Below, piece after piece: positions 1,989-28,161 of a DNA stretch of 36,140 nt. The DNA is taken from positions 1 to 36,140 of IMG/VR virus record IMGVR_UViG_3300009159_000158; one strand, written 5' to 3'. The stretch is from a virus. How positions within the stretch are numbered: position 1 is the stretch's first letter; each line of letters opens with the position of its first letter. The position numbers were made by a program, and so were the translations under genes. The notes beneath the pieces are model-generated. The model did not search any database, was not told where the DNA came from, and saw only the letters and a list, made by a program, of their open reading frames with translations.

Positions 1989-4385
1989 TCACTGTGCATA
2001 CTTCAATATCTTGGTTTGTACATCAACTGAACTTCGTTGTGCTCTGACCATTTCTTGCATCATTCCAACCATTGCTCTATTTGAATTTGCCATATCTTCA
2101 AACATTTGTACAAAGTTTCCGCCGCCGTTGTTCAATGGTATGACTGCTTCGTCGCCATGTAGCGTAGCAGGGTATCCAGAGTTTGGTCCCGAAAATACTC
2201 CGCCTGCTTCTGCTGTGATTGCAGAATCTTTTAACAGGCCCACTATGGTTGGGCCTCGACTTTTTACCTGTCCATACCACTTGCTGCCTTCTAGATTAGA
2301 TGCAGCACCTGCAAGATCCGAATTAGCCAATTGTTCTTTTAGCTTGGGCCATTTTTGAATCCAACTTGGTCCCATATTAAAAGTTAAATCAGTTAACGCA
2401 CCTTGCCCAGAGGTACCAAGTTTACCAAATCCTGGAATTTTCTGTGCGGCTAGTCTGTGATGAGCATAATCATCCTCAAACATTTTCATTATTTCTTCTT
2501 GGGAAAATTCTCTGTTCCATTCAGGAGGTAAAGATTTTCCATCACCTATTAGATGCCCTACTCCCACAGTCCACAACCCCAAACTGTCTTTGTAAGGCTT
2601 GTTACGTATACCTTCGTGGGCAATAATCATTTTCTTGATTTCATCTTCACTCATACCACTAGTTTTAGATGCAGTTTTTAATTTTGCTGGAGGCGGTGCA
2701 GCATTAGATCCAGTTTTTTCTGCGCCCTGGCCATCTGTGCCGGTAACAGCGCCTTGTTTAGCAGGTGCTGCCGCTGATGGTGCTGGTCTAGCTGCCGCTG
2801 GTGCCGCAGGTGCCGCTGATGGTGCTGGTCTAGCTGCCGCTGGTGCCGCAGGTGCCGCTGATGGTGCTGCCGCTGGTGCTGGTCTAGCTGCCGCTGGTGC
2901 TGCCGAAGCAGGAGCAGGTGCAGATCCTACCGGTGCACCACGATTATTTTTGACGCCTGCAAAGCCAGCTAGACTTTCCAAGGCTGCGGTTGCTGAATCA
3001 GTAGCCCCGGTCAATGCGCTCATACCGGTTGTAACAGCACCCATGCCTACCTGAAGCGCATCTTGCTGTCTAGCAGTGATCTGACGATCATTCTGTTCTT
3101 GCTTTACTCTGTTTTTTGTTATGTTGTCATCTACAGCTTGTGCTGTTTTGCCAGCATCAACTTTTTCACCCAACGTTCCTGCTTTCTGCATAGCAGTTGC
3201 TTGATTTTGGGCTTTGAGGGAAATACCATATTGATCTTGAACACCTATAGAAGCACGGCCGATTGCGCCTTTTCTATCCTTTTCAAACCCCTGGACCATT
3301 GTTGAAAAAACTTCGCTTGCGTCAAACATTCCACTGGCCAGCATTCGTTGTGCCTCAGGCGCTGATCGCATGAGCTTTTGTACTTCTGGACTGTTAAACG
3401 TGCCAGTGACCGAATTTAACATACCTTTTCGAATGGCTGGATCCAGATTTGCTGAGTAGCTTTGTACCAGATTAGCTTGTTCTAATTGCTTTTTAGCAAC
3501 GTCGGCATCTGGGCCGCCGGCAGCTATTCTATCTTCTAACTTGGCTGTGAAAGCAGCAAAGCGTTCTTCTGTTTGAGCTGATTCCTTGTCGGATTCTTGT
3601 TGTTGTCTATTTCTGCCAGTTACTTTTGCTAGTAAATCAACTTCCTTGATATATGCGGCAGCGGCTGCAGTTTGCTCTTGAGCAGACATTTTCAGGCGTG
3701 AACCTGTGAGCATCTGCATTTTTGTGTAGCTTACAATGCCCTTGTTGATCTCATTGATGGATAGACCCATGGCAGCAAACTCTGCACCAACATCACCATT
3801 GGTCAGTACCTGTGATATTTTAGCTACTTCAGTAAGTCCGCCTCCTACTGTTTTGCCAAACATGGCCAATGTTTGCGAGTTCTCAGCAACAAGAGCAGTA
3901 AACTCGCCCATTTCTTTTGCCGCATCGTAATTCATGCGTTTCAAATTGTCATAAACGCCTGACATGCCGGCGGCAGTCTGAGCGCCAGCGTTAGCAATGT
4001 CTTTGTAACCTTTAAGTAATTGGTCTGACTGTTCTTTTACTGCGGCAACATAGCGGGCACCACCTTGGAGTATCACTTTGGTTGCTAGTTTAACAGCAAT
4101 GCCAACTCCTGGAATTAATCCTACTAGATTGCTCAGAGCATCGGCTGAGCCAATCATGGATTTATTAAATGCATCTGAGCTGGATTGGCCAGAGGCAAGT
4201 GATTTGCCCATACCCAGTGCAGAAGATCCTAATTTGTTTATTGACGCAGTAAACCCTTTGACTCCAGTGGCAGCGTCTGCCATGGCTATTTTGGTTTCAG
4301 CAGATACATATCCGAGCCGTTTTATTTCTTCCGCGGCCTGTGCGTTAATTTCTGCAATTTCTTGTGGGGTATACTCGGTTGCCAT
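1989..4385 (-). CDS. Tail tape-measure protein with internal T4-type lysozyme
   Basis: The 798-residue protein looks like a tail tape measure fused to a muramidase. Residues 84-110 form a hydrophobic helix (LIPGVGIAVKL), and residues 110-470 are mostly helical and Ala/Gln-rich. Residues 485-545 are an Ala/Pro linker. Residues 578-722 form a GH24 lysozyme domain: E591 in AHEG, D600 in YKDS and T606 in WTVG have exactly the spacing of the T4 lysozyme triad E11/D20/T26. The C-terminus has GPNSGYPATLHGDEAVIPL, a motif typical of tape-measure C-termini. Tape measures set tail length and leave the tail at infection, so the lysozyme could open peptidoglycan during DNA entry. The gene is divergent from the gp26-like gene, 25 nt away. 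No good Shine-Dalgarno sequence precedes the ATG; a late box ends 5 nt before it. Confidence 0.82.
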   Translation of the reverse strand: MATEYTPQEIAEINAQAAEEIKRLGYVSAETKIAMADAATGVKGFTASINKLGSSALGMGKSLASGQSSSDAFNKSMIGSADALSNLVGLIPGVGIAVKLATKVILQGGARYVAAVKEQSDQLLKGYKDIANAGAQTAAGMSGVYDNLKRMNYDAAKEMGEFTALVAENSQTLAMFGKTVGGGLTEVAKISQVLTNGDVGAEFAAMGLSINEINKGIVSYTKMQMLTGSRLKMSAQEQTAAAAAYIKEVDLLAKVTGRNRQQQESDKESAQTEERFAAFTAKLEDRIAAGGPDADVAKKQLEQANLVQSYSANLDPAIRKGMLNSVTGTFNSPEVQKLMRSAPEAQRMLASGMFDASEVFSTMVQGFEKDRKGAIGRASIGVQDQYGISLKAQNQATAMQKAGTLGEKVDAGKTAQAVDDNITKNRVKQEQNDRQITARQQDALQVGMGAVTTGMSALTGATDSATAALESLAGFAGVKNNRGAPVGSAPAPASAAPAAARPAPAAAPSAAPAAPAAARPAPSAAPAAPAAARPAPSAAAPAKQGAVTGTDGQGAEKTGSNAAPPPAKLKTASKTSGMSEDEIKKMIIAHEGIRNKPYKDSLGLWTVGVGHLIGDGKSLPPEWNREFSQEEIMKMFEDDYAHHRLAAQKIPGFGKLGTSGQGALTDLTFNMGPSWIQKWPKLKEQLANSDLAGAASNLEGSKWYGQVKSRGPTIVGLLKDSAITAEAGGVFSGPNSGYPATLHGDEAVIPLNNGGGNFVQMFEDMANSNRAMVGMMQEMVRAQRSSVDVQTKILKYAQ
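2761..2915 (-). repeat. 42-bp tandem repeat coding an Ala/Pro linker
   Basis: A 42-bp unit (2776-2817, exact again at 2818-2859, then a diverged third copy to about 2915) encodes a 14-residue Ala/Pro/Arg linker. It separates the helical tape-measure body from the lysozyme domain. The copies are identical at DNA level, so recent unit gain or loss is likely. Confidence 0.9.
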
Positions 4386-4390
4386 AACTA

Positions 4391-4398
4391 TATTTACC
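4391..4398 (-). promoter_or_regulatory. Late promoter box GGTAAATA before the tape measure
   Basis: The minus strand reads GGTAAATA, then TAGTT, then the ATG of the tape-measure gene. The same octamer precedes gp20. There is no Shine-Dalgarno sequence between box and ATG, so a transcript from this box would be leaderless or nearly so. Confidence 0.5.
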
Positions 4399-4410
4399 TA
4401 GGAAAAAATC

Positions 4411-5247
4411 ATGTCAAATAACCCATTAACACAATATTTCAGACAGCCGGCTGTGTATGTTAAATTGCCCAGCGGCGGAAAATACTATGCAGATGGCTCA
4501 ATTGTGATGCCGGCCAATCAGGAATTGCCGGTTTATCCAATGACAGCAATTGACGAAATTACATATCGTACGCCTGATGCACTGTTCAACGGCAACGCTG
4601 TGGTTAATGTTATTAAAAGTTGTATTCCTGCTATTCGAGATCCCTGGAGCATTCCTGCCATGGACATTGATACTATTTTGGTTGCAATACGTATGGCCAG
4701 TTACGGAACCACAATGGAAATTTCAACCACTTGCCCACACTGCACCCACGAAGCGGATTACGGAATTGATTTACGCAATCTACTTGAAAATATGAAGGCA
4801 CCAGATTATTCAAAATCCGTCACTGACGGTGATTTAGAGATATACTTTAAGCCAATGACATATCGAAATCTCAACGAGAATAATCAACGACAGTTTGAAG
4901 AACAAAAAATACTACAAGTTTTACCCGGTACTGACATGCCCGATGAACAAAGAATGTCTGCACTCAGTACAGCATTGATGAAAATTACAGAAATTACTGT
5001 GGGTGCTTTGGCACAAAGCATTGCCGCAGTTAAAACTCCGGCAGCGTTAGTAAGTGAACCCGAGTTCATTGAAGACATGCTAAAAAATTGCGATCGACGA
5101 CTGTTTGGTAAAATTAGAGATCATGTTGTTGAAGCAAAATTAGGTGCAGAGATACAGCCACTGAAGATTGTGTGCAGTGAATGCACTGAAGAATATCAGC
5201 AGGCTATTACCTTGGACATGACAAGTTTTTTCGCGGACGCCTCCTAG
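4411..5247 (+). CDS. 26: gp26-like baseplate hub / tail assembly protein
   Basis: The 278-residue protein resembles the T4 baseplate-protein family that includes gp26, a factor for central hub assembly. The N-terminus has VKLPSGGKYY and LPVYPMTAIDEI, followed by a conserved NGNAVVNVIKSCIP stretch. Two Cys pairs, C108/C111 (CPHC) and C255/C258 (CSEC), probably form a zinc ribbon. AGGA lies 9 nt before the ATG. The frame closes with TAG only a few codons after a T TTT TTC heptamer (5226-5232), and the -1 frame stays open for another 76 codons, so this protein probably has a frameshifted long form of 350 residues. It sits head-to-head with the tape measure, as expected for a tape-measure chaperone. 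Confidence 0.75.
   Translation: MSNNPLTQYFRQPAVYVKLPSGGKYYADGSIVMPANQELPVYPMTAIDEITYRTPDALFNGNAVVNVIKSCIPAIRDPWSIPAMDIDTILVAIRMASYGTTMEISTTCPHCTHEADYGIDLRNLLENMKAPDYSKSVTDGDLEIYFKPMTYRNLNENNQRQFEEQKILQVLPGTDMPDEQRMSALSTALMKITEITVGALAQSIAAVKTPAALVSEPEFIEDMLKNCDRRLFGKIRDHVVEAKLGAEIQPLKIVCSECTEEYQQAITLDMTSFFADAS
5226..5232 (+). promoter_or_regulatory. Probable -1 ribosomal frameshift site (T TTT TTC)
   Basis: The heptamer T TTT TTC is in the correct phase for simultaneous P- and A-site slippage: zero-frame codons TTT TTC become TTT TTT. The zero frame then ends after four codons (GCG GAC GCC TCC TAG). The -1 frame continues open to 5462. A 4-bp GACC/GGTC pairing downstream (about 5259-5279) is too weak to call a stimulator with confidence. 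A one-base length error in the T6 run is the main alternative. Confidence 0.6.
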
Positions 5248-19291: not shown

Positions 19292-21343
19292 ATGGCAACT
19301 ACCCCAGGTTACGATCCAAAAAAGGCAGCACTATTCAATCAACTTCGTCAACAAATGAGTGCGGGTGACGCTGCTGCCCAAGCAGGAATATCCCGCGATC
19401 AAATTAGAGATGGAACTTATGTAATCACTGGAAAAAATCTTCCTGATCCTCCTGGGGGAACGAATCCCAATCCTGGCACCATGGGCGCTCCTGTAGAAGG
19501 ATCCCAGAAAGTTGCCGGTCGTGATTATGATAGACCAAGTGCTGCCGATCAGGCAGAATCTGACAGATTTGATCGAGGACTTCAAAGTGAATCAAACTTT
19601 GAACAAGTTGATTATCAGGTAGAAGCCAAAAATCCGCCAAATAAAGTAACCCCAATCAACTATACCACCACCAGTACAGAAACTGTGAGTGGTGGTGGGT
19701 CCACTACAATTACTTCTGGCCTCAGAACTCCCAATGCAGCCAGTGAGGCAATACAACCAAAAATTGCTGAAAAACAAGCTGAAATTAACCAATTTGTCAA
19801 AGACAATCCCAGTAACTTTTTCAGAGAAAAACAAGGTCTTCCGCTATTGTCAGATGCAGAACAAGCAGCCCAGGACGCCAAATTCAAACAGCTTACTGAC
19901 GAACGTGCCGCACTTAGAAATGAACAAAATAATGCTAAAACACCCGGCACACCCACAGTTACCACAGTACCCAACACCACAACCACAACCACAACTACCA
20001 CCTCAGGAACTACCTCAGCAGATACTGCTGTAGCATCGCCTGGCGGATCTGACCCTGTTATAAATCGACAAACAGAACAAGAGATAGGAGTCGCAGTTGG
20101 CGCTGCCAATGTAACAACAGCTCCGGGTGCAGTTGGAGATGAAGCACTGCAAGCCACAGAAGATGCACAGGCAGCGGCCTTGGCCGCACAAGAAGGCCGC
20201 GCATTTGCACCAGAACCAGCAGTAGACCCTAATTCAGATCCCAATACAAATGTAGGTGGTGAAGTTCCAAGTCAGGCCGAGCTGTTACGAAATCAAAATG
20301 CACAGGCATTGGCATCAGATCCCAATACAAATGTAGGCAGCGATGGGCCAAGTCAGGCTGAGCTGTTACGAAATCAAAATGCACAGGCATTGGCATCTGA
20401 CCCTAATACAAATATAGGTAACGAAACTGCTAATCCTAACTTTGCGGCCAATCCCGACGAAGAAGCTGAACGTGACAATCTCAATGCTGCTATCAAACAA
20501 GGCACACTGGACAAGGCACGAGCACAGAACACCATTGCCAACCAGCGTAGAAATCCCAACAACGCTGATTGGCGTGTCAAACTAAGACTAGCGCCAGGCT
20601 CCACTTATTTGTACAATGCTCAAGGAGGCTCTGGAATATTGCAGCCGTTGGCAGCGCAAGGTGGCGTGATATTTCCGTATACACCTACAATTGCCACAAC
20701 GTACAAAGCCACGTACTCAAGTTATGATCTCACACACAGCAACTACAAAGGTTACTACTATCAAGGCAGTGCAGTTGAACCGGTCACACTGAGTTGCCCG
20801 TTTACTGCACAAAGCACAGCGGAAGCCGAATACCTGTTGGCGGTGATACACTTTTTCCGTTCAGTGACAAAAATGTTCTATGGACAAGATCCCGAACGTG
20901 GCACACCGCCACCTTTGGTTTATCTCACAGGCCTGGGAGAATTTCAGTTCAACGAACATCCTTGCGTAGTTCAATCATTCACTTACGACTTACCTGCAGA
21001 CGTAGACTACATACGTGCTCGCAGTCAAAACGTCACCAACAGTAACATGCTTAACAAACGCCAAAGTACCAATGCCACAGGTCCTGGCACAACCTGGGGC
21101 AATGGCATTGTGGGACAAGCATTGACTACAATTGGTCGATTAACTGCTGCCAAATTGCCCAAAGGAGCAATGAACACACCGCCAGCACCAGCATCATTTG
21201 GTCAAAACAGCCCGACCTATGTGCCAACAAAGATGACCATAGCCATATCACTGCTGCCGGTTCAAAGCCGTAAACAACAAAGCCAGCAGTTCAGTCTACG
21301 ACAGTATGCCAATGGCGACCTACTCAAAGGAGGATTCTGGTAA
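19292..21343 (+). CDS. 48: Baseplate tail-tube cap-like structural protein (gp48-like)
   Basis: The 683-residue protein has a long low-complexity N-terminus (1-420: Asn/Pro/Thr/Ala-rich, with a TTTTTTTT run and two full 27-residue repeats) and a structured C-terminus (from about residue 425). The latter reads WRVKLRLAPGSTYLYN, VIFPYTPTIATTYKATY, CPFTAQSTAEAEYLLAVIHFFRS and TKMFYGQD. I recall this pattern from proteins annotated as tail-tube cap (gp48) in marine T4-like phages; gp54 is an alternative. It would connect the baseplate hub to the tail tube. AGGA stands 7 nt before the ATG, behind a late box. The stop overlaps the gp53-like start (TAATG). Confidence 0.65.
   Translation: MATTPGYDPKKAALFNQLRQQMSAGDAAAQAGISRDQIRDGTYVITGKNLPDPPGGTNPNPGTMGAPVEGSQKVAGRDYDRPSAADQAESDRFDRGLQSESNFEQVDYQVEAKNPPNKVTPINYTTTSTETVSGGGSTTITSGLRTPNAASEAIQPKIAEKQAEINQFVKDNPSNFFREKQGLPLLSDAEQAAQDAKFKQLTDERAALRNEQNNAKTPGTPTVTTVPNTTTTTTTTTSGTTSADTAVASPGGSDPVINRQTEQEIGVAVGAANVTTAPGAVGDEALQATEDAQAAALAAQEGRAFAPEPAVDPNSDPNTNVGGEVPSQAELLRNQNAQALASDPNTNVGSDGPSQAELLRNQNAQALASDPNTNIGNETANPNFAANPDEEAERDNLNAAIKQGTLDKARAQNTIANQRRNPNNADWRVKLRLAPGSTYLYNAQGGSGILQPLAAQGGVIFPYTPTIATTYKATYSSYDLTHSNYKGYYYQGSAVEPVTLSCPFTAQSTAEAEYLLAVIHFFRSVTKMFYGQDPERGTPPPLVYLTGLGEFQFNEHPCVVQSFTYDLPADVDYIRARSQNVTNSNMLNKRQSTNATGPGTTWGNGIVGQALTTIGRLTAAKLPKGAMNTPPAPASFGQNSPTYVPTKMTIAISLLPVQSRKQQSQQFSLRQYANGDLLKGGFW
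20234..20422 (+). repeat. 81-bp tandem repeat
   Basis: Two full 81-bp units (20234-20314 and 20315-20395) and a partial third (from 20396) encode a 27-residue unit: SDPNTNVG, a variable tripeptide, then PSQAELLRNQNAQALA. They lie in the low-complexity N-terminal part of the tail-tube-cap-like protein. Confidence 0.92.
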
Positions 21344-21645: not shown

Positions 21646-23154
21646 ATGGCAACAGCAGCAGAAATTGAACAACAACTGGCAGCGGCCCGTGCGACCTTGG
21701 GCCAATTGGAGGCCAACCAAGGCGCCGTACTGCGTGAAGTTGGTGTGTTGAACGCTGAAAAAGCTGAGTTAATATCTACCGCCGGAAGACTATATCAAGG
21801 TGGCGATCCAGCTGGAGCAAAACTTCTACGCGAACAAGCTGGCGCACTTGAAGATAAGGCTTACGCACTGCAAACAGGTCCGGCAGCACAAGCACTGGCA
21901 GCCGAACAAGCAAAAATTCGAACTCTTGAAAATGATCTGTATAGAGCACAGCAAAAAGCAGAGTTTGATGCAAAACAAGCATCTGGTCCCACTGCTACAG
22001 CCGAAGTAAAAGAATCTGCAGATGGTGCTACACAGAATCCCCCAACACCACCTGCCAGCACCGGTCGGTTAACCACCACCGAAGCTGCCACACTGGCACA
22101 AAACACTGAAACCGGAACCAACCCTCCTGTAAAGACTCTAACACAGACACAAAGCGTTCCGCCTCCACTTCCTCCTGGCGCTAACACCCCGTCAGAAGGT
22201 CGTCCTGGAGGAGAACCAGGTGCAGCCGCCACAGGAGAAGATGGTGCATCACGGGCCAACACAAAACAAATTCTTGACACTGTTGGCAATAAACCATTTG
22301 AGCCCAAGGACAATGTGTTGGATCAGTACGCCAGCTATACCTACAACATTGGCTGGTACATACTGACACCAGAACAGTATACTAAGTTACAAACCAGTGC
22401 CAAACCGTCAATAAGTCAGTACAATCTACTGATGCAGAGCGGTGGCGCACCAGCGGTACAACCAGACCTTATTGATGCGTCCGGAAGAAGAAATGCGGCC
22501 AGCGATCCTAGATCAACCACCTATACCGGTCCCGCGGCTGCAATAGGCCGCAATCCATTTTTTGGATTGGATTATTATCTTGATAACGTTGAACTAACAA
22601 GTTCCATAGTTGGCAAAGGTGCCGGCAGAGCAAATAATGTAGGCAGCCTAAAGTTCACAGTGACTGAACCGGCAAACATAACATTGATCAACAATCTGTA
22701 CAAAGCAGTAAAACAATTGTATCCTGACACTAACGCCACTTACAGCGACGCATACTACGCATTGATCATAAGATTCTATGGATACGACGAAACTGGAAAA
22801 ATTGTACAGGCCCGCAATGGGGATAATAACAACGCTGTTGTGGAAAAAATTATACCTTTTAAATTGAGCAATATTGAATTTACTGTGTCTAACAAGCTGG
22901 TTGAATATCAAGTCACAGCAGTCGGAACTCCTTATGACATTGGGTTTGGTTCAAACCTAGGTGTAATCAAAGAAAAAATTGAAGTTTCTGGTGCCACGGT
23001 AAAAGATCTAATGACCAAAGGTGCTGGACCGGTAGAAGTATCACCAGATGATGGAAGAGCATCAACTACTACCCCACAGACTCTGATAATCGACGGAACG
23101 CCTAATCAAGAGCTAGGTGGTGGAACCATCAACAGCTTAGGAGCAGGAGCATAA
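21646..23154 (+). CDS. Virion structural protein, probable baseplate hub component
   Basis: The 502-residue protein starts with an Ala/Glu-rich coiled coil (1-115), then has a Pro/Thr/Gly-rich linker (120-215), and a folded C-terminal part (about 220-460) beginning DQYASYTYNIGWYILTPEQY. NPFFGLDYYLDNVELTSSIVG and KFTVTEPANITLINNLYKAV are conserved-looking segments that I associate with structural proteins of marine T4-like phages. A loop contains SGRRNAASDPRSTT, which returns almost unchanged in the next protein. Position between gp53 and gp5 suggests a hub protein (gp27-type role), but I cannot assign a T4 equivalent. Spacing to the next gene is 1 nt. Confidence 0.68.
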   Translation: MATAAEIEQQLAAARATLGQLEANQGAVLREVGVLNAEKAELISTAGRLYQGGDPAGAKLLREQAGALEDKAYALQTGPAAQALAAEQAKIRTLENDLYRAQQKAEFDAKQASGPTATAEVKESADGATQNPPTPPASTGRLTTTEAATLAQNTETGTNPPVKTLTQTQSVPPPLPPGANTPSEGRPGGEPGAAATGEDGASRANTKQILDTVGNKPFEPKDNVLDQYASYTYNIGWYILTPEQYTKLQTSAKPSISQYNLLMQSGGAPAVQPDLIDASGRRNAASDPRSTTYTGPAAAIGRNPFFGLDYYLDNVELTSSIVGKGAGRANNVGSLKFTVTEPANITLINNLYKAVKQLYPDTNATYSDAYYALIIRFYGYDETGKIVQARNGDNNNAVVEKIIPFKLSNIEFTVSNKLVEYQVTAVGTPYDIGFGSNLGVIKEKIEVSGATVKDLMTKGAGPVEVSPDDGRASTTTPQTLIIDGTPNQELGGGTINSLGAGA

Positions 23155-23155
23155 C

Positions 23156-24889
23156 ATGGCCACAGGATTTCAACTTACTCCAGAAGAATTACGAATTATA
23201 GCAGAGAACGGCAGCCCGCGAGATCAAGCTGCTGCTGCCAGCGGCCGATTTGCACAAACATTTAATCAATCCATTGCCAATCAAGGAGTCAGAACTCTAG
23301 ATTCGTCTGGAAGAAGAACTGCGGCCAGCGACCCTAGGTCAACTACCAATAAAGCAACTAGACAAGCACCGCCCAAGGCCAACGCAGCCCCCAGTGTCAG
23401 CAAAAATCTTGCACAAGGACTGATGGAAAGTCTAAACGCACAAGAAGCTGAGTTGATCAAAAATGGCGTATGGGAAGTTGCAAACCGGTACAGTGTAGAA
23501 TTTGCCCCGGCATCATTGGGCGACGCTCGTGTTACTAAATTTGGTAAAGCCGACAAAGCAAAAGTACCAATGCAACAATCAAAGAATCCAGCTGACCGAG
23601 TTAATCCCGAAAGTAACTCAGTTGCCTACGATTTTAGAACACAGATTTTTGCAGCAGGCACGCCAATTCTAGTGATTATGGATGAGATATTAAAAAACAG
23701 CTCATACATTGCTGACCAGGCCAGAGCATTTGTTGATCAAGTAAGTGGGTTAACCAAACAACAAAAGCCATTGGGAAATTTAGTATGGTACAAAATTTCT
23801 GTAGGTGCCACTCCAATAGAGCCATTTGATAAAAAACGTGATGCATACGCACAAAATATCAAATATGTAATTTCTGCGTATCCTATAAACAGCATGCAAA
23901 GCGAATATTTTCCAGAATGTAATATACGAGGCCGCCACAAAAGTTACAAGTACTGGTTCACTGGACAAAACACACAGGTGTTGTCATTTGAGCAAAAGTT
24001 CAACAGTTTATACGGAACAACATTTACCAACCCAAATGAATTAACAACCACCAGGATAGCTGCCAATACTCTTATAAGGCCGCGCCGCGAGTATCAGGCA
24101 GCAGTGTCTGACAGCAACAGTCAAGGCGCTGAAAAAAATGCCAATTCAGTGGGTGCATCGGCTGCTGATTATTTGTATAATAAAGCAGACCTTGGTGAGG
24201 CCAATTTAACCATTGTTGGCGATCCAGCATGGATACAACAGGGCGAACTGGCTCACTCTCTTGATGCGGCAAGTTTTAATTTTGATCCGTTTAATCCAGA
24301 TGGATCAATCAACTATGACGCACAAGAAATTGTGTTTGATATACAATGGAACCCCGGCGTGGATTATGACTTGACTGGCACTGGCCTGGCCAACCCTAAT
24401 GTGTCAGAAAATCCACAGGCAGTGTACACATACAAAGCATCAGAAGTGGTTAGCAAATTCAGCAAAGGCAAGTTTACACAAGACATTAAGGGAATTTTTA
24501 TTGATCTAGTTGACCTTACTGCACAACCGGCTGTTGCAGATTCCAATCAAACCAACGCTGAAACTGCCAGACTGGCAAGACAAAACGCTGATGCTGGTGT
24601 GCGTCCATCGGCCATGGCAACAGCAGTTCGTACTCCGCCTCCACTTGGTGCCACCAGTGTCACAACCAACCAGCCAACATCGGCAATAGCAAAAGGAACA
24701 CAACAGTTGTTAAATCCGCCGCAAACCACCAATCCAAGTCTCACACAACTGCAGTCTAGTCAAGCATATATAAGTGCCCGTAGGTCTGGAGCAACACCAC
24801 AGGCAGCGTTAGATGCGGCAAGACAAAGTTTTAGTGCCAATGGCACAGGCAGTGTTGTGCCAGTTCAACCAATCAATAGAGATACATAA
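23156..24889 (+). CDS. Virion structural protein, probable baseplate hub component
   Basis: The 577-residue protein opens with LTPEELRIIAENGSPRDQAAA and a linker with SGRRTAASDPRSTT, shared with its neighbour. The folded region (about 100-450) includes WEVANRYSVEFAPASLGDARV, GNLVWYKISVGATPIEPFDKKRDAYAQ and FPECNIRGRHKSYKYWFTGQN. The last 100 residues are Ala/Thr/Gln-rich and disordered-looking. Located directly before gp5 (TAATG overlap), it is a candidate for the gp27-type hub protein, which carries gp5 in T4. This is inference from position, not from recognised homology. Confidence 0.68.
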   Translation: MATGFQLTPEELRIIAENGSPRDQAAAASGRFAQTFNQSIANQGVRTLDSSGRRTAASDPRSTTNKATRQAPPKANAAPSVSKNLAQGLMESLNAQEAELIKNGVWEVANRYSVEFAPASLGDARVTKFGKADKAKVPMQQSKNPADRVNPESNSVAYDFRTQIFAAGTPILVIMDEILKNSSYIADQARAFVDQVSGLTKQQKPLGNLVWYKISVGATPIEPFDKKRDAYAQNIKYVISAYPINSMQSEYFPECNIRGRHKSYKYWFTGQNTQVLSFEQKFNSLYGTTFTNPNELTTTRIAANTLIRPRREYQAAVSDSNSQGAEKNANSVGASAADYLYNKADLGEANLTIVGDPAWIQQGELAHSLDAASFNFDPFNPDGSINYDAQEIVFDIQWNPGVDYDLTGTGLANPNVSENPQAVYTYKASEVVSKFSKGKFTQDIKGIFIDLVDLTAQPAVADSNQTNAETARLARQNADAGVRPSAMATAVRTPPPLGATSVTTNQPTSAIAKGTQQLLNPPQTTNPSLTQLQSSQAYISARRSGATPQAALDAARQSFSANGTGSVVPVQPINRDT

Positions 24890-26418
24890 TGGCAGATAAT
24901 ATTATCAGAACCAATGGCACTGCGCCAAATTATAAACTTGACCGTGGCGGCATGACCTCGCAGTTTGGACCATTCATTGGGATAGTAAAAAACAACGTGG
25001 ACCCTACCAGACAAGGCCGTTTACAAGTTTACATTGAACAGTTTGCTGGTGGAAACCCTGACGATAAAACAGCATGGACCACAGTGAGTTATTGTCCACC
25101 ATTTTACGGCGCAACTCCTCCGAGGCCCGGTAAAAAAGGTGACACTGACAGTGTTGGCGGATACCTTGATGGTAATCCGCAAAGTTACGGCATGTGGTTT
25201 ACACCACCCGATGTTGGAGTCAGTGTATTATGTGTTTTTGCCAGCGGCGACCCCAGCCTTGGATATTACATAGGGTGTATTCCTGATCAAGGCATAACGC
25301 ATATGGTTCCTGCAATTGGATCAAGCAAGGCGTTTGACCTGCAAAACAGCGATCAAAAAAGCTATTACAATGGCGCCACAGTGTTGCCAGTAACTGAAAT
25401 CAATCCAAACAATTCTAAAATTGATGATAACCCACAGTTTTTTAATCAACCAAAGCCAGTACACAGTTTTCTAGCCGCAGAAATGTTCCAGCAAGGCACA
25501 CTTGGCGATCCACAGCGTGGACCTATAGGATCAACCAGTCAACGAGAAAGTCCCAGTGCTGTGTTCGGAGTAAGCACCCCGGGTCGAGCTGTGTACCAAG
25601 GTGGATTAACTGAATCTAAAATTAAGGACCGCATTACGGCCGGATCAATCTCTGCCGCAGACGTCACTATAATTGGTCGCCAAGGCGGTCACAGCATTGT
25701 GCTTGACGATGGCAACTTGGAAGGCAACGATCAGTTAGTACGAATTCGCACTGCCGGCGGACATCAAATCACCATGAGTGACGACGGCAACTTTTTCTAC
25801 ATCATTCATGCCAATGGCCAAGCCTGGTTAGAATTTGGACAAGAAGGCACAATTGATGTGTACGCCACAAACTCAGTTAATGTTCGCACACAAGGCACAA
25901 TTAATCTACACGCAGACAAAGACATTAATATGTTTGCTGGCGGCACAATCAATATGAAAAGCATGACCGGTACAACGTTAGAAAGTGAAAGAACAATAAC
26001 CCTGGCCAGCAATGCTGAAATGACTCTTTACAGTAAAGCTCGCATTGGGGTACGTGCCGACGGCAGTCTTGCCGTGGTCAGCAACAATGGATCCTGGAAC
26101 GCAGGTAGTGCAATGGTATTGCGAGCAGGCGGAATTGATCTCAATGGCGGATCTGCTGAAAATGTAGAACCTCCTGTCAAACTAGAAAAACGCATAATGC
26201 CCGACACCGAGTTCAACAATGCCACAGGCTGGCAAATATCAGCCACAGGATTGGAAAGTATTGTGACACGAGCTCCCACACACGAACCGTGGCCGTTCCA
26301 TAATCAGGGCGTTGAAGTTGAAGTTGCTATGGAGGAAGGACAGCCAACTACCCCGCCCAACACTCCGCCATTGCCATCAGGCTGGAGTGGGACAGTGACA
26401 GGTGCGTCAAATGGTTAA
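24889..26418 (+). CDS. 5: Baseplate hub / spike protein gp5 without lysozyme domain
   Basis: The 509-residue protein has the gp5/VgrG layout. The N-terminus (GPFIGIVKNNVDPTRQGRLQVYIEQF) is the OB-fold of gp5. Then comes a conserved YCPPFYGATPPRPGKKGDTDS and GMWFTPPDVGVSVLCVF, as in gp5/VgrG. The C-terminal half is a beta-helix built from short repeats (TIDVYATNSVNVRTQGTINL and following), the membrane-piercing spike. No HEG/YKD/T lysozyme motif occurs between the two parts; T4 gp5 has a complete lysozyme there. The C-terminal THEPWPFHNQGV segment is typical of marine phage gp5. The gene overlaps both neighbours. Confidence 0.85.
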   Translation: MADNIIRTNGTAPNYKLDRGGMTSQFGPFIGIVKNNVDPTRQGRLQVYIEQFAGGNPDDKTAWTTVSYCPPFYGATPPRPGKKGDTDSVGGYLDGNPQSYGMWFTPPDVGVSVLCVFASGDPSLGYYIGCIPDQGITHMVPAIGSSKAFDLQNSDQKSYYNGATVLPVTEINPNNSKIDDNPQFFNQPKPVHSFLAAEMFQQGTLGDPQRGPIGSTSQRESPSAVFGVSTPGRAVYQGGLTESKIKDRITAGSISAADVTIIGRQGGHSIVLDDGNLEGNDQLVRIRTAGGHQITMSDDGNFFYIIHANGQAWLEFGQEGTIDVYATNSVNVRTQGTINLHADKDINMFAGGTINMKSMTGTTLESERTITLASNAEMTLYSKARIGVRADGSLAVVSNNGSWNAGSAMVLRAGGIDLNGGSAENVEPPVKLEKRIMPDTEFNNATGWQISATGLESIVTRAPTHEPWPFHNQGVEVEVAMEEGQPTTPPNTPPLPSGWSGTVTGASNG

Positions 26419-26941
26419 GTTTACATTTGCATTGCCAAACGGACAGTTGTTCGCATTGGATGGCCCCAGCGGCGCCACGCGAGCACAAGCAGAAAAAATA
26501 TATCTTCAACAGCTGGCTGCTGGTGCATTCGTTGGGTTAAGGTCTGGCGATCAATTACAGTCTCGAGAAAACACAACAATTCAATTTACTCAATCTCGTC
26601 TTGATCGTGGCACAGCAGGTGTCCCGGATACGCCGTTGCTGGCAATTTATAATGGTGGCGTAATATCTTCGTTGCCTGTGCTTTCTAATGTTCCAATCAA
26701 CAACGGCATCACGGTAGCAGACTATGTGGGTCAATCAACAGTGACCGAAGGCATCGGTCCACTATCAACCGCACAAGTACAGGCTGTGATGGCTGCTGTT
26801 GCGGCCAGTGTGTGTCAACCTGCCGATGTAGTAACTGATGAACTGGGTGTTGGCAAGTATGGACTGAGTGCGCAACAATTAGAAGACGCCGGATATTTAA
26901 AATGCGGCACTACCGCTAGATTTTTAGGACAAGCACAATGA
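26411..26941 (+). CDS. Small virion-associated protein, likely first half of a split structural gene
   Basis: The 176-residue protein begins MVKFTFALPNGQLFALDGPSGAT, followed by an AEKIYLQQLAAGAFVGL helix. The C-terminus KYGLSAQQLEDAGYLKCGT looks like a small helical motif often seen in phage structural proteins. I chose ATG at 26411 because AGG lies 8 nt upstream; a GTG at 26402 is in the same frame. It overlaps gp5 by 8 nt and the next gene by ATGA. I recall relatives in which YGLS..QLE..GYLKPGT leads directly into a VWTGK segment as one protein, so this and the next gene may be halves of one ancestral gene. Confidence 0.6.
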   Translation: MVKFTFALPNGQLFALDGPSGATRAQAEKIYLQQLAAGAFVGLRSGDQLQSRENTTIQFTQSRLDRGTAGVPDTPLLAIYNGGVISSLPVLSNVPINNGITVADYVGQSTVTEGIGPLSTAQVQAVMAAVAASVCQPADVVTDELGVGKYGLSAQQLEDAGYLKCGTTARFLGQAQ

Positions 26942-28161
26942 CCGGATTAACTGATGTATTGAAAAGTCCCAGTGTATGGACAGGCAAAGATGGAGTTGCT
27001 GGAGTAACAGACTTGTTAAAAAATCCTCCACTGCAGGATAAAATACAGTTTGGATTAATGAAGTCTAGTTTTGACACCTTGGTTAAAACTGGAGAAATTG
27101 TAACTCCTGGCACAGATTTAAAAGCACCAACCGGCCTGTTATATAATGCGGCTGCAAATGCTGGAAAAAGTTTGATATCACCCACTGCTGGTCTAGTAGA
27201 AGTTCCTAAAGAACTAGGCAGTCTATCTTCTGGCAGCTTATCTAGTTTAACCGGCGGGTTTGCCAGTGCGTTAAAAGGAGCAGGAGTTGACTTGGCCACA
27301 GGAAAAATTTCTACAGTAGAATCAGCATTTGCGTCAGGCGGGGTTTCTGGAGCCGCTGGAGCACTGTCTGGGGCATTATCAGGTGTCACTGGAGCTCTTG
27401 GCAGCGCAGCCGGCGGTATCACTAGCAACTTCGGCAGTGTGTCATCATTGGCCAATAACGGTACAGCGCAACTGGGCGGGCTGTTAGCAAATGCCAGTAA
27501 GTATGGAGTTGGCACAGCAGTTGAATGGGCTAAAACTACATCTGGAGCCACTGGTGCGATAGCAGGAATATCTGGCAATTTAACCAGTGGGTTTGCTAGT
27601 AGTCTACAAGGAGCAGGAGTTGATCTTGCAACTGGTAGAATTGCGGCAGTAGACTCGGCATTTGCATCAGGTGGCGTAACCGGAGCAGTCGGAGCATTAT
27701 CTGGAGCACTCGGAGGCGCTACCAATAGATTAACATCTGGACTAACAACTCAAATGGATTCACTGGCCAAACAAGGAGAGTTTGCAGTTAACTTCAGTGA
27801 CTTTAAATTGCCAGCCGCAGTGGCCGGCATTGTTCCGGCTGCTGGATTTAAAGGAACCATTGATAGGTCTACATTAAATGCGGCAACTGCTAAATTAATT
27901 GGTAGTGATAAAATAGGATTGCCTGACTTTAGTCCACAGGCACTTGACACATCTGCACTAACTGATGCCGCAAACAAGGCCAAAGGATTGTTAACTGGCG
28001 GCCTGGATGCCAATGGATTGCTGTCCAGGGCGTCTGGTGCAGGAGGACTAGCCTCACTTGACAGCAAAATTAATGCATTAGGTGATCCTAATGCCCCACC
28101 ATATACCGGCACTGATCCTGTTATTAGGGCAAGATTGGGATTGCCACCAGTTGCTGCTTGA
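26938..28161 (+). CDS. Gly/Ala/Ser-rich virion structural protein
   Basis: The 407-residue protein begins TDVLKSPSVWTGKDGVAGVTDLLKNPPLQ and then becomes rich in Gly, Ala, Ser and Leu. It contains a duplicated block: FASALKGAGVDLATGKI (about residues 107-123) and FASSLQGAGVDLATGRI (about 218-234), each followed by SAFASGGV and an Ala/Gly segment. There are no catalytic motifs or clear membrane helices. The overall look is of a repetitive structural protein placed between gp5 and gp25 in the late operon. It starts inside the stop codon of the preceding gene (ATGA), so it depends on upstream translation. Confidence 0.65.
   Translation: MTGLTDVLKSPSVWTGKDGVAGVTDLLKNPPLQDKIQFGLMKSSFDTLVKTGEIVTPGTDLKAPTGLLYNAAANAGKSLISPTAGLVEVPKELGSLSSGSLSSLTGGFASALKGAGVDLATGKISTVESAFASGGVSGAAGALSGALSGVTGALGSAAGGITSNFGSVSSLANNGTAQLGGLLANASKYGVGTAVEWAKTTSGATGAIAGISGNLTSGFASSLQGAGVDLATGRIAAVDSAFASGGVTGAVGALSGALGGATNRLTSGLTTQMDSLAKQGEFAVNFSDFKLPAAVAGIVPAAGFKGTIDRSTLNAATAKLIGSDKIGLPDFSPQALDTSALTDAANKAKGLLTGGLDANGLLSRASGAGGLASLDSKINALGDPNAPPYTGTDPVIRARLGLPPVAA
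27256..27730 (+). repeat. Diverged internal duplication (333-bp period)
   Basis: Blocks beginning at 27256 and 27589 encode about 50 similar residues (FAS.L.GAGVDLATG.I...SAFASGGV.GA.GALSGAL). The DNA copies differ at many third positions, so the duplication is old. Confidence 0.75.

Follow-up and report, generated by a model that had tools for sequence, protein, structure and literature searches.

Why should two neighbouring structural genes of one virus encode almost the same short peptide? This question is raised by the virus record IMGVR_UViG_3300009159_000158, analysed over its whole length of 36,140 bases (the window), in which two genes labelled A and B in this analysis (as are P, X and Y below) carry, both in frame, the 14-residue copies SGRRNAASDPRSTT (22480-22521; amino acids (aa) 279-292 of A) and SGRRTAASDPRSTT (23306-23347; aa 51-64 of B). 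When related phages were searched for the peptide, as the first-pass annotation of this DNA had proposed, it was found at five sites in four protein families of uncultured phages: the loop of A, the C-terminal tail (C-tail) of A, the N-terminal tail (N-tail) of B, the first loop of phrog_12050 proteins and the C-tail of a PAAR/lysin-like protein. The peptide is present or absent as a unit in flexible loops and tails and is conserved while its codons drift. That it is a portable motif of about 16 residues of central tail proteins, and a putative docking peptide, is a reading to which we give even credence. The features directly concerned are as follows.

21646-23154, plus strand: gene A, a structural protein of 502 aa with a weak match to phrog_11190, a helical N-terminus and a tube/hub-like beta domain
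22315-22968, plus strand: tube/hub-like domain of A (aa 224-441; AlphaFold2 model and structure comparison), which holds the motif loop
22444-22575, plus strand: motif loop of A (aa 267-310), between predicted strands 2 and 3
22474-22524, plus strand: motif copy 1, DASGRRNAASDPRSTTY, in the mid-protein loop of A (aa 277-293)
23156-24889, plus strand: gene B, a structural protein of 577 aa that matches the C-terminal part of phrog_11190 and has a variable N-tail
23300-23350, plus strand: motif copy 2, DSSGRRTAASDPRSTTN, in the N-tail of B (aa 49-65)

As the first-pass annotation had reported, the two peptides lie in neighbouring genes and are one residue apart. They share 13 of 14 residues, nine of 14 codons and 37 of 42 bases, and its count of four synonymous changes among the five base differences was borne out by the codon comparison, with one residue changed. 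The common stretch is slightly longer than 14 residues, D-[AS]-SGRR...TT (22474-22521 and 23300-23347). Aligned without gaps, the most similar 14-mers of A and B agree at 13 positions, compared with six to nine in 300 shuffles (seven in 208 of them), and at seven once the motif is masked in A; thus the two linkers are otherwise unlike, again as described. The 42-base pattern was absent from all 100 shuffles of the window.

The likeness of the two copies extends to their DNA. The 37 matching bases compare with 27.3 expected from the peptides and the local codon usage (P = 0.00024, 100,000 draws), the nine identical codons with 3.7 expected (P = 0.0023) and, over 51 bases of the window's A and B, 44 matches with 32.0 expected (reached in 0 of 3,000 draws). 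The B copy also matches the A loops of loci L002 (P 0.0013) and L003 (P 0.005) beyond the level forced by the peptide. As the shared bases exceed that level, the two copies have a common DNA origin and the B copy stems from a copying event, which was not very recent. Therefore, of the earlier claim that selection and not a recent copy event explains the pair, the part on selection holds and very recent copying is not indicated, but the absence of copying has to be given up. When five substitutions are drawn at random, no more than one residue changes in 2 to 3% of cases, a figure that alone is weak evidence of peptide constraint. The copying would have run from A to B, because the A copy is common to other phages and the B copy is not.

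Outside A and B, a DNA pattern scan led to an open frame of 209 residues that belongs to the phrog_12050 family and contains DASGRMNANSDPRSTT, and a peptide scan led to DKSGRLTASTDPRSTQY at the C-terminus of a 350-residue PAAR/lysin-like protein, which matches phrog_281 (PAAR; expect value (E) 2.6e-8) and the hub-lysozyme family phrog_1259 (E 1.3e-16), with a Pfam PAAR match below its cut-off. Relatives of the phrog_12050 protein came from 60 loci and comprised 49 distinct proteins, 32 of them with a long first loop and a recognisable motif, 15 with a short loop and two fragments; 28 of the 32 long loops fit the strict pattern, and a few (e.g. L207, L213) deviate at an anchor. The motif is all-or-none in these P proteins. 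The PAAR protein has relatives at 13 loci (the query's record included) with ten distinct proteins: the query and four others keep SGRL[TN]A[YF]TDPRSS, one carries another insert, two have short tails without the motif, one is a fragment and one a distant relative.

Scans of viral contigs with a nine-residue pattern gave 7/47 and 10/51 confirmed stretches, and none of the 48 stretches in bacterial and archaeal genomes that fit a ten-residue pattern was confirmed. A motif profile run over 4,833 open reading frames (ORFs) of the collected loci gave nothing beyond the five sites at E 1 or better. Among named phages, the hits of one peptide search were limited to a single Pectobacterium phage, present in two records (E 8), and a second search returned none; no relatives of A and B were present in the named-phage collection at E 1e-5 and 0.01, and the P relative has distant relatives in 57 named-phage records, many of them jumbo phages.

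Profiles seeded from a single host protein were run against 4,905 ORFs and connected the sites. The P-only profile (31 seeds) recovered the A loop (E 1e-7), B (5e-6) and the PAAR protein (0.005); the A-only profile recovered P (2e-7), B (1e-7) and the PAAR protein (7e-4); and the PAAR-only profile recovered the A C-tail (4e-4) and P (0.002), three A C-tail rows being labelled 'other' in the tally. The best reversed decoys reached 5.0 (P-only), 9.1 (A-only) and none (PAAR-only), and no other ORF scored better than E 4. Records with a profile match numbered 10/43 and 33/48, the second count covering 48 of 73 listed loci; many of the records are fragments and some are near-copies of one another. 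A single copy was detected in 42 of these 43 matching records and two in the window; the window's near-identical record has two copies as well.

Selection on the peptide was measured in the 32 long-loop P proteins, without a motif filter, as the ratio of the proportions of nonsynonymous and synonymous differences (pN/pS), with six anchors defined as S-G-R, D and R-S. The pooled anchors gave 0.193 and the rest of the P protein 0.181, compared with 0.431 for the eleven other motif columns, 0.289 for the 14 columns before, 0.434 for the 13 after and 0.354 for all 17 motif columns pooled, with pS of 0.61-0.77 across the P comparison. Thus, the pooled anchors are as constrained as the rest of P while synonymous sites are near saturation. 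This result bears on the possibility that the peptide belongs to mobile linker filler, that is, to flexible stretches shuffled among tail genes by recombination and tolerated there, with the motif having no role of its own. The A-to-B copy, a real copying event, would suit such shuffling, and so would the other modules common to tail proteins of the group (a Y C-tail module and an AED-rich repeat, described below). The constrained anchors strain the filler explanation, since filler would drift, and all 32 long P loops are still recognisable; we consider it distinctly unlikely.

The same loops bear on a cleavage site for a phage or host protease, another role suggested for the peptide at first. 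The peptide has two conserved arginines, and most of the 32 long P loops have R at each of the two positions, but the G, D, S and T conserved on both sides exceed the needs of a trypsin-like site, a cut at the loop would split the tube-like domain of A, and no protease is in evidence, no search aimed at proteases having been made. A protease site is therefore disfavoured and very improbable.

Codons were compared between sixteen chosen copies, giving 74 cross-site pairs with at least nine shared residues, pairs that are not independent of each other. A clear excess of shared bases was seen in three A-loop/B pairs only. Six of the remaining 71 pairs fell below P 0.05 (five involve L211; 3.6 expected) and none below 0.01, and a faint DNA kinship may exist among some copies. 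The codons across host proteins are about as different as chance allows; on the whole, conservation concerns the peptide and not its DNA. A DNA element for recombination or regulation, translated only by coincidence, could invoke the DNA likeness of the A and B copies, but it is contradicted by the comparison across host proteins, where the bases differ roughly to the extent that the peptides permit, and we find it scarcely credible. Taken together, the pooled anchor pN/pS and the codon drift across host proteins bear out the earlier claim that selection keeps the peptide.

The relatives of A and B themselves were collected from viral contigs (50 loci for A, 55 for B, many on the same contigs), and the related peptide has the rough consensus D-x-S-G-R-x-[NT]-[AG]-x-x-D-P-R-S-x-T-[Y]. 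The A loop is of variable length between QSGGAP and GRNPFF and holds the motif in 7/47 aligned rows (the window, its near-identical record and five others), two of the 47 not reaching the loop and rows L063 and L093 being labelled 'none' in the trees though short of it. Among A relatives, the whole unit of the motif loop is either there or missing. Six other A rows (6/47) have SRLNASTDPRSTT in the C-tail in place of the loop motif, and none of the 47 rows has the motif at both loop and C-tail. The N-tail motif of B was present in 2/49 rows only, the window and the near-identical record IMGVR_UViG_3300010885_052864, several of the 49 being fragments without the N-terminus. At the motif position, the B protein of L080 has SGRGDAAFAATDPRR, which may be a remnant of the motif, and that of L032 (1634, B N-tail) has SGRGDAAFAATDPRRL, a possible degenerate remnant. 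The first-pass annotation had held that absence of the motif from the homologues of both proteins would refute it; the outcome is split, as some A homologues have the motif, at two sites, whereas among B proteins it is confined to the window and the near-identical record. On the A tree, three changes over the 47 rows account for the loop and C-tail states, and on the P tree three changes over 46 labelled rows account for the long and short loops; both trees were quickly built, contain open forks and are no evidence of many independent gains.

In the AlphaFold2 model of A, with a predicted local distance difference test score (pLDDT) of 58.5, aa 267-300 fall below 50 and lie between strands 260-266 and 311-320, and the B motif lies within aa 32-83, also below 50. 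These low-confidence stretches are as expected of disorder, in agreement with the original placement of the peptide in disordered regions. As in a short linear docking motif, constraint at the anchors is thus found within a flexible region (pooled pN/pS, codon drift and low pLDDT in A and B). Structural comparison of A 224-441 found tail tube, hub and baseplate proteins of lambda (gpV, Z 6.8), P2 (7.6), E217 (7.7), Mu (gp44, 6.4) and T4 (6.4). Matches of A to PspA, Vipp1 and ESCRT-III (Z around 10) were given no weight because only the helical N-terminus was covered, where such scores are common; this segment (aa 1-122; 21646-22011) is probably just long helices. The P motif loop is the first hairpin, as judged by sequence. 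Comparison of the A, B and P profiles with each other found nothing, and the motif loops were rejected as homologous positions in the three proteins on these null results. Solved structures gave no match beyond chance to the peptide or to the A, B and P profiles.

The predictions for A and B also concern the possibility that the peptide is a small structured hairpin, like half an RHS/YD repeat, which stiffens or caps its loop and needs no partner. The tail peptide of the PAAR protein has a weak likeness to RHS_repeat PF05593 (E 0.022, 15.6 bits), and the spacing of G-R and D-P-R-S resembles the RHS repeat. However, 15.6 bits is short of the 22 bits of the curated cut-off, neither the A nor the P peptide matches the repeat, the peptide is single and of half the length of the repeat, and the prediction in A and B is of low confidence; a hairpin of this kind is improbable.

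The genes around the motif pair follow the baseplate order P, wedge protein, A, B, hub/lysozyme family protein, X and Y, the neighbourhood being marked as baseplate by the phrog_13211/Phage_base_V gene.

19292-21343, plus strand: gene P, of the phrog_12050 family; P of the window is without the motif, though relatives in other phages have the motif loop
21343-21642: wedge protein, between P and A
24889-26418, plus strand: baseplate hub subunit/tail lysozyme family gene (phrog_13211, Phage_base_V)
26402-26941: gene X
26938-28161: gene Y

In 13 relatives (L037, L046, L091-L100 and L103), A and B form a single chain, whose length ranges from 692 residues, in a protein truncated by a contig end, to 1,099 residues. 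Because the motif occupies the A C-tail in one related group and A and B are one chain elsewhere, the window may show the motif on its way to the A-B junction, at a stage where neither copy has yet been lost. X and Y are likewise one chain in 12 relatives, so that baseplate proteins are split or fused from phage to phage. In the window's own P (19292-21343), AELLRNQNAQALASDPNTN is present twice, as an internal repeat of the long linker.

Other segments are also common to several tail proteins. The module DPNAPPYTGxDPxxRxRLGLPP ends Y in the group (28078-28158 in the Y C-tail), is internal to Y in some records and also forms the C-terminus of two different B proteins, those of L004 and L032. 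An AED-rich repeat, DPxGVLAAEDAAI..., is located in the linkers of the L007 P (3-1382) and in the C-tail of the L007 B (3164-4954), with 66% identity over 86 residues, and was also detected in the fused A of L100. Because such modules cross between tail proteins, the sequences favour a general traffic of loop and tail modules among the tail proteins of the group, with two limits: the module profiles were seeded from both hosts and are no independent test of exchange, and constraint was tested for the peptide motif alone.

How could one peptide serve in such different proteins? A docking peptide would bind an adjacent ring or a shared partner within the tail hub, and would thereby join neighbouring tube, hub or spike proteins, so that any flexible arm able to reach the docking site could carry it. 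The first-pass annotation had named docking and incorporation into the baseplate as possible functions, and the recurrence of the peptide in other tail proteins fits either. According to reviews (PMC9022992, PMC8718954), strands 2 and 3 of tail tube proteins are linked by a long loop, which most monomer structures show as disordered or flexible; this loop joins the tube rings, aided by the N-terminus and, in some phages, by a C-terminal arm. On the predicted strand order, the A motif loop seems to occupy the place of this long loop, whose ring-joining task is also performed by N-termini and C-terminal arms of tail tubes. The likeness to the loops of lambda gpV, T5 pb6, SPP1 gp17.1 and T4 gp19 would lie in a flexible insertion in a tube-like fold and in termini that share its task; as described there, the loops are proper to each protein, whereas here the same short peptide recurs in different proteins. 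In the window phage, DNA of an A-type loop would have been copied into the start of B, leaving two copies.

A more specific proposal is that of a common plug-in peptide, in which one hub or tube site is served by a motif shown on any of several neighbours and moved by non-homologous copying along with other exchangeable modules, so that connectors would evolve apart from their carriers; we hold it tentatively, as possible and rather doubtful. Alternatively, the peptide could be a recognition tag for a hub-assembly chaperone, or another hypothetical phage factor that loads tail proteins, and not a contact of the finished tail. Hub assembly in T4 requires helper proteins. A factor binding the peptide wherever it is displayed would account for the irrelevance of position and host protein and for one copy sufficing, but the motif is missing from many relatives with the same proteins, and this alternative is unlikely.

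Among other modular systems, the nearest likeness is to the promiscuous immunoglobulin (Ig)-like domains of phage structural proteins reportedly described by Fraser et al. in 2006, where one module is found on distinct structural proteins from phage to phage. The likeness is that the module is there or missing as a unit; Ig-like domains are whole folds, whereas the unit here is of 16-17 residues and of low predicted confidence in A and B, and no Pfam match was found in the A peptide. Short linear motifs are well known in eukaryotic signalling. The searches made of an open-access library gave no paper combining baseplate with linear motifs, or disorder with mosaicism, and the sole match to the motif letters was an optics paper. 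Docking loops of tail proteins are known; the variant proposed here is one whose key peptide recurs across proteins.

Several results weigh against a docking peptide held in common. The anchor columns were chosen after the alignment had been inspected, and they are uneven: G and the second S are invariant and the last T hardly changes, whereas the first S exceeds 87% of the remaining P columns in variability, and D and the two R stand at or above 61-73%. The P loci were fetched with the whole protein, but with a query chosen for its motif and with one of six search words adjoining it. The PAAR-only profile reaches the A loop (E 0.05) and B (0.13) weakly, and the A C-tail variant, which is without G, is weakly matched by the P- and A-based profiles (E 0.04-0.21). 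In the A tree, the fork that unites the loop group with the C-tail group has no support. Confidence in the A model is low, its resemblance to tube and hub proteins is modest (Z 6-8, rated middling by the tool itself) and Foldseek gave no match for it with E of 0.001 or below; the model of B, at pLDDT 49.8, is of poor quality (best structural match Z 5.6). Profile comparison of A with P gave no relation (probability 0.5%), so that their loops cannot be called equivalent and the idea of homologous positions was dropped. Finally, 33/43 records, some of them fragments, are without the motif, and with so many relatives lacking it, the motif is not needed in general.

If the docking reading is true, phages that hand a conserved short peptide between virion proteins would be assembling and rewiring their tails in an unusual manner, and this would help to explain how baseplate genes can split, fuse and be swapped while the machine still works.

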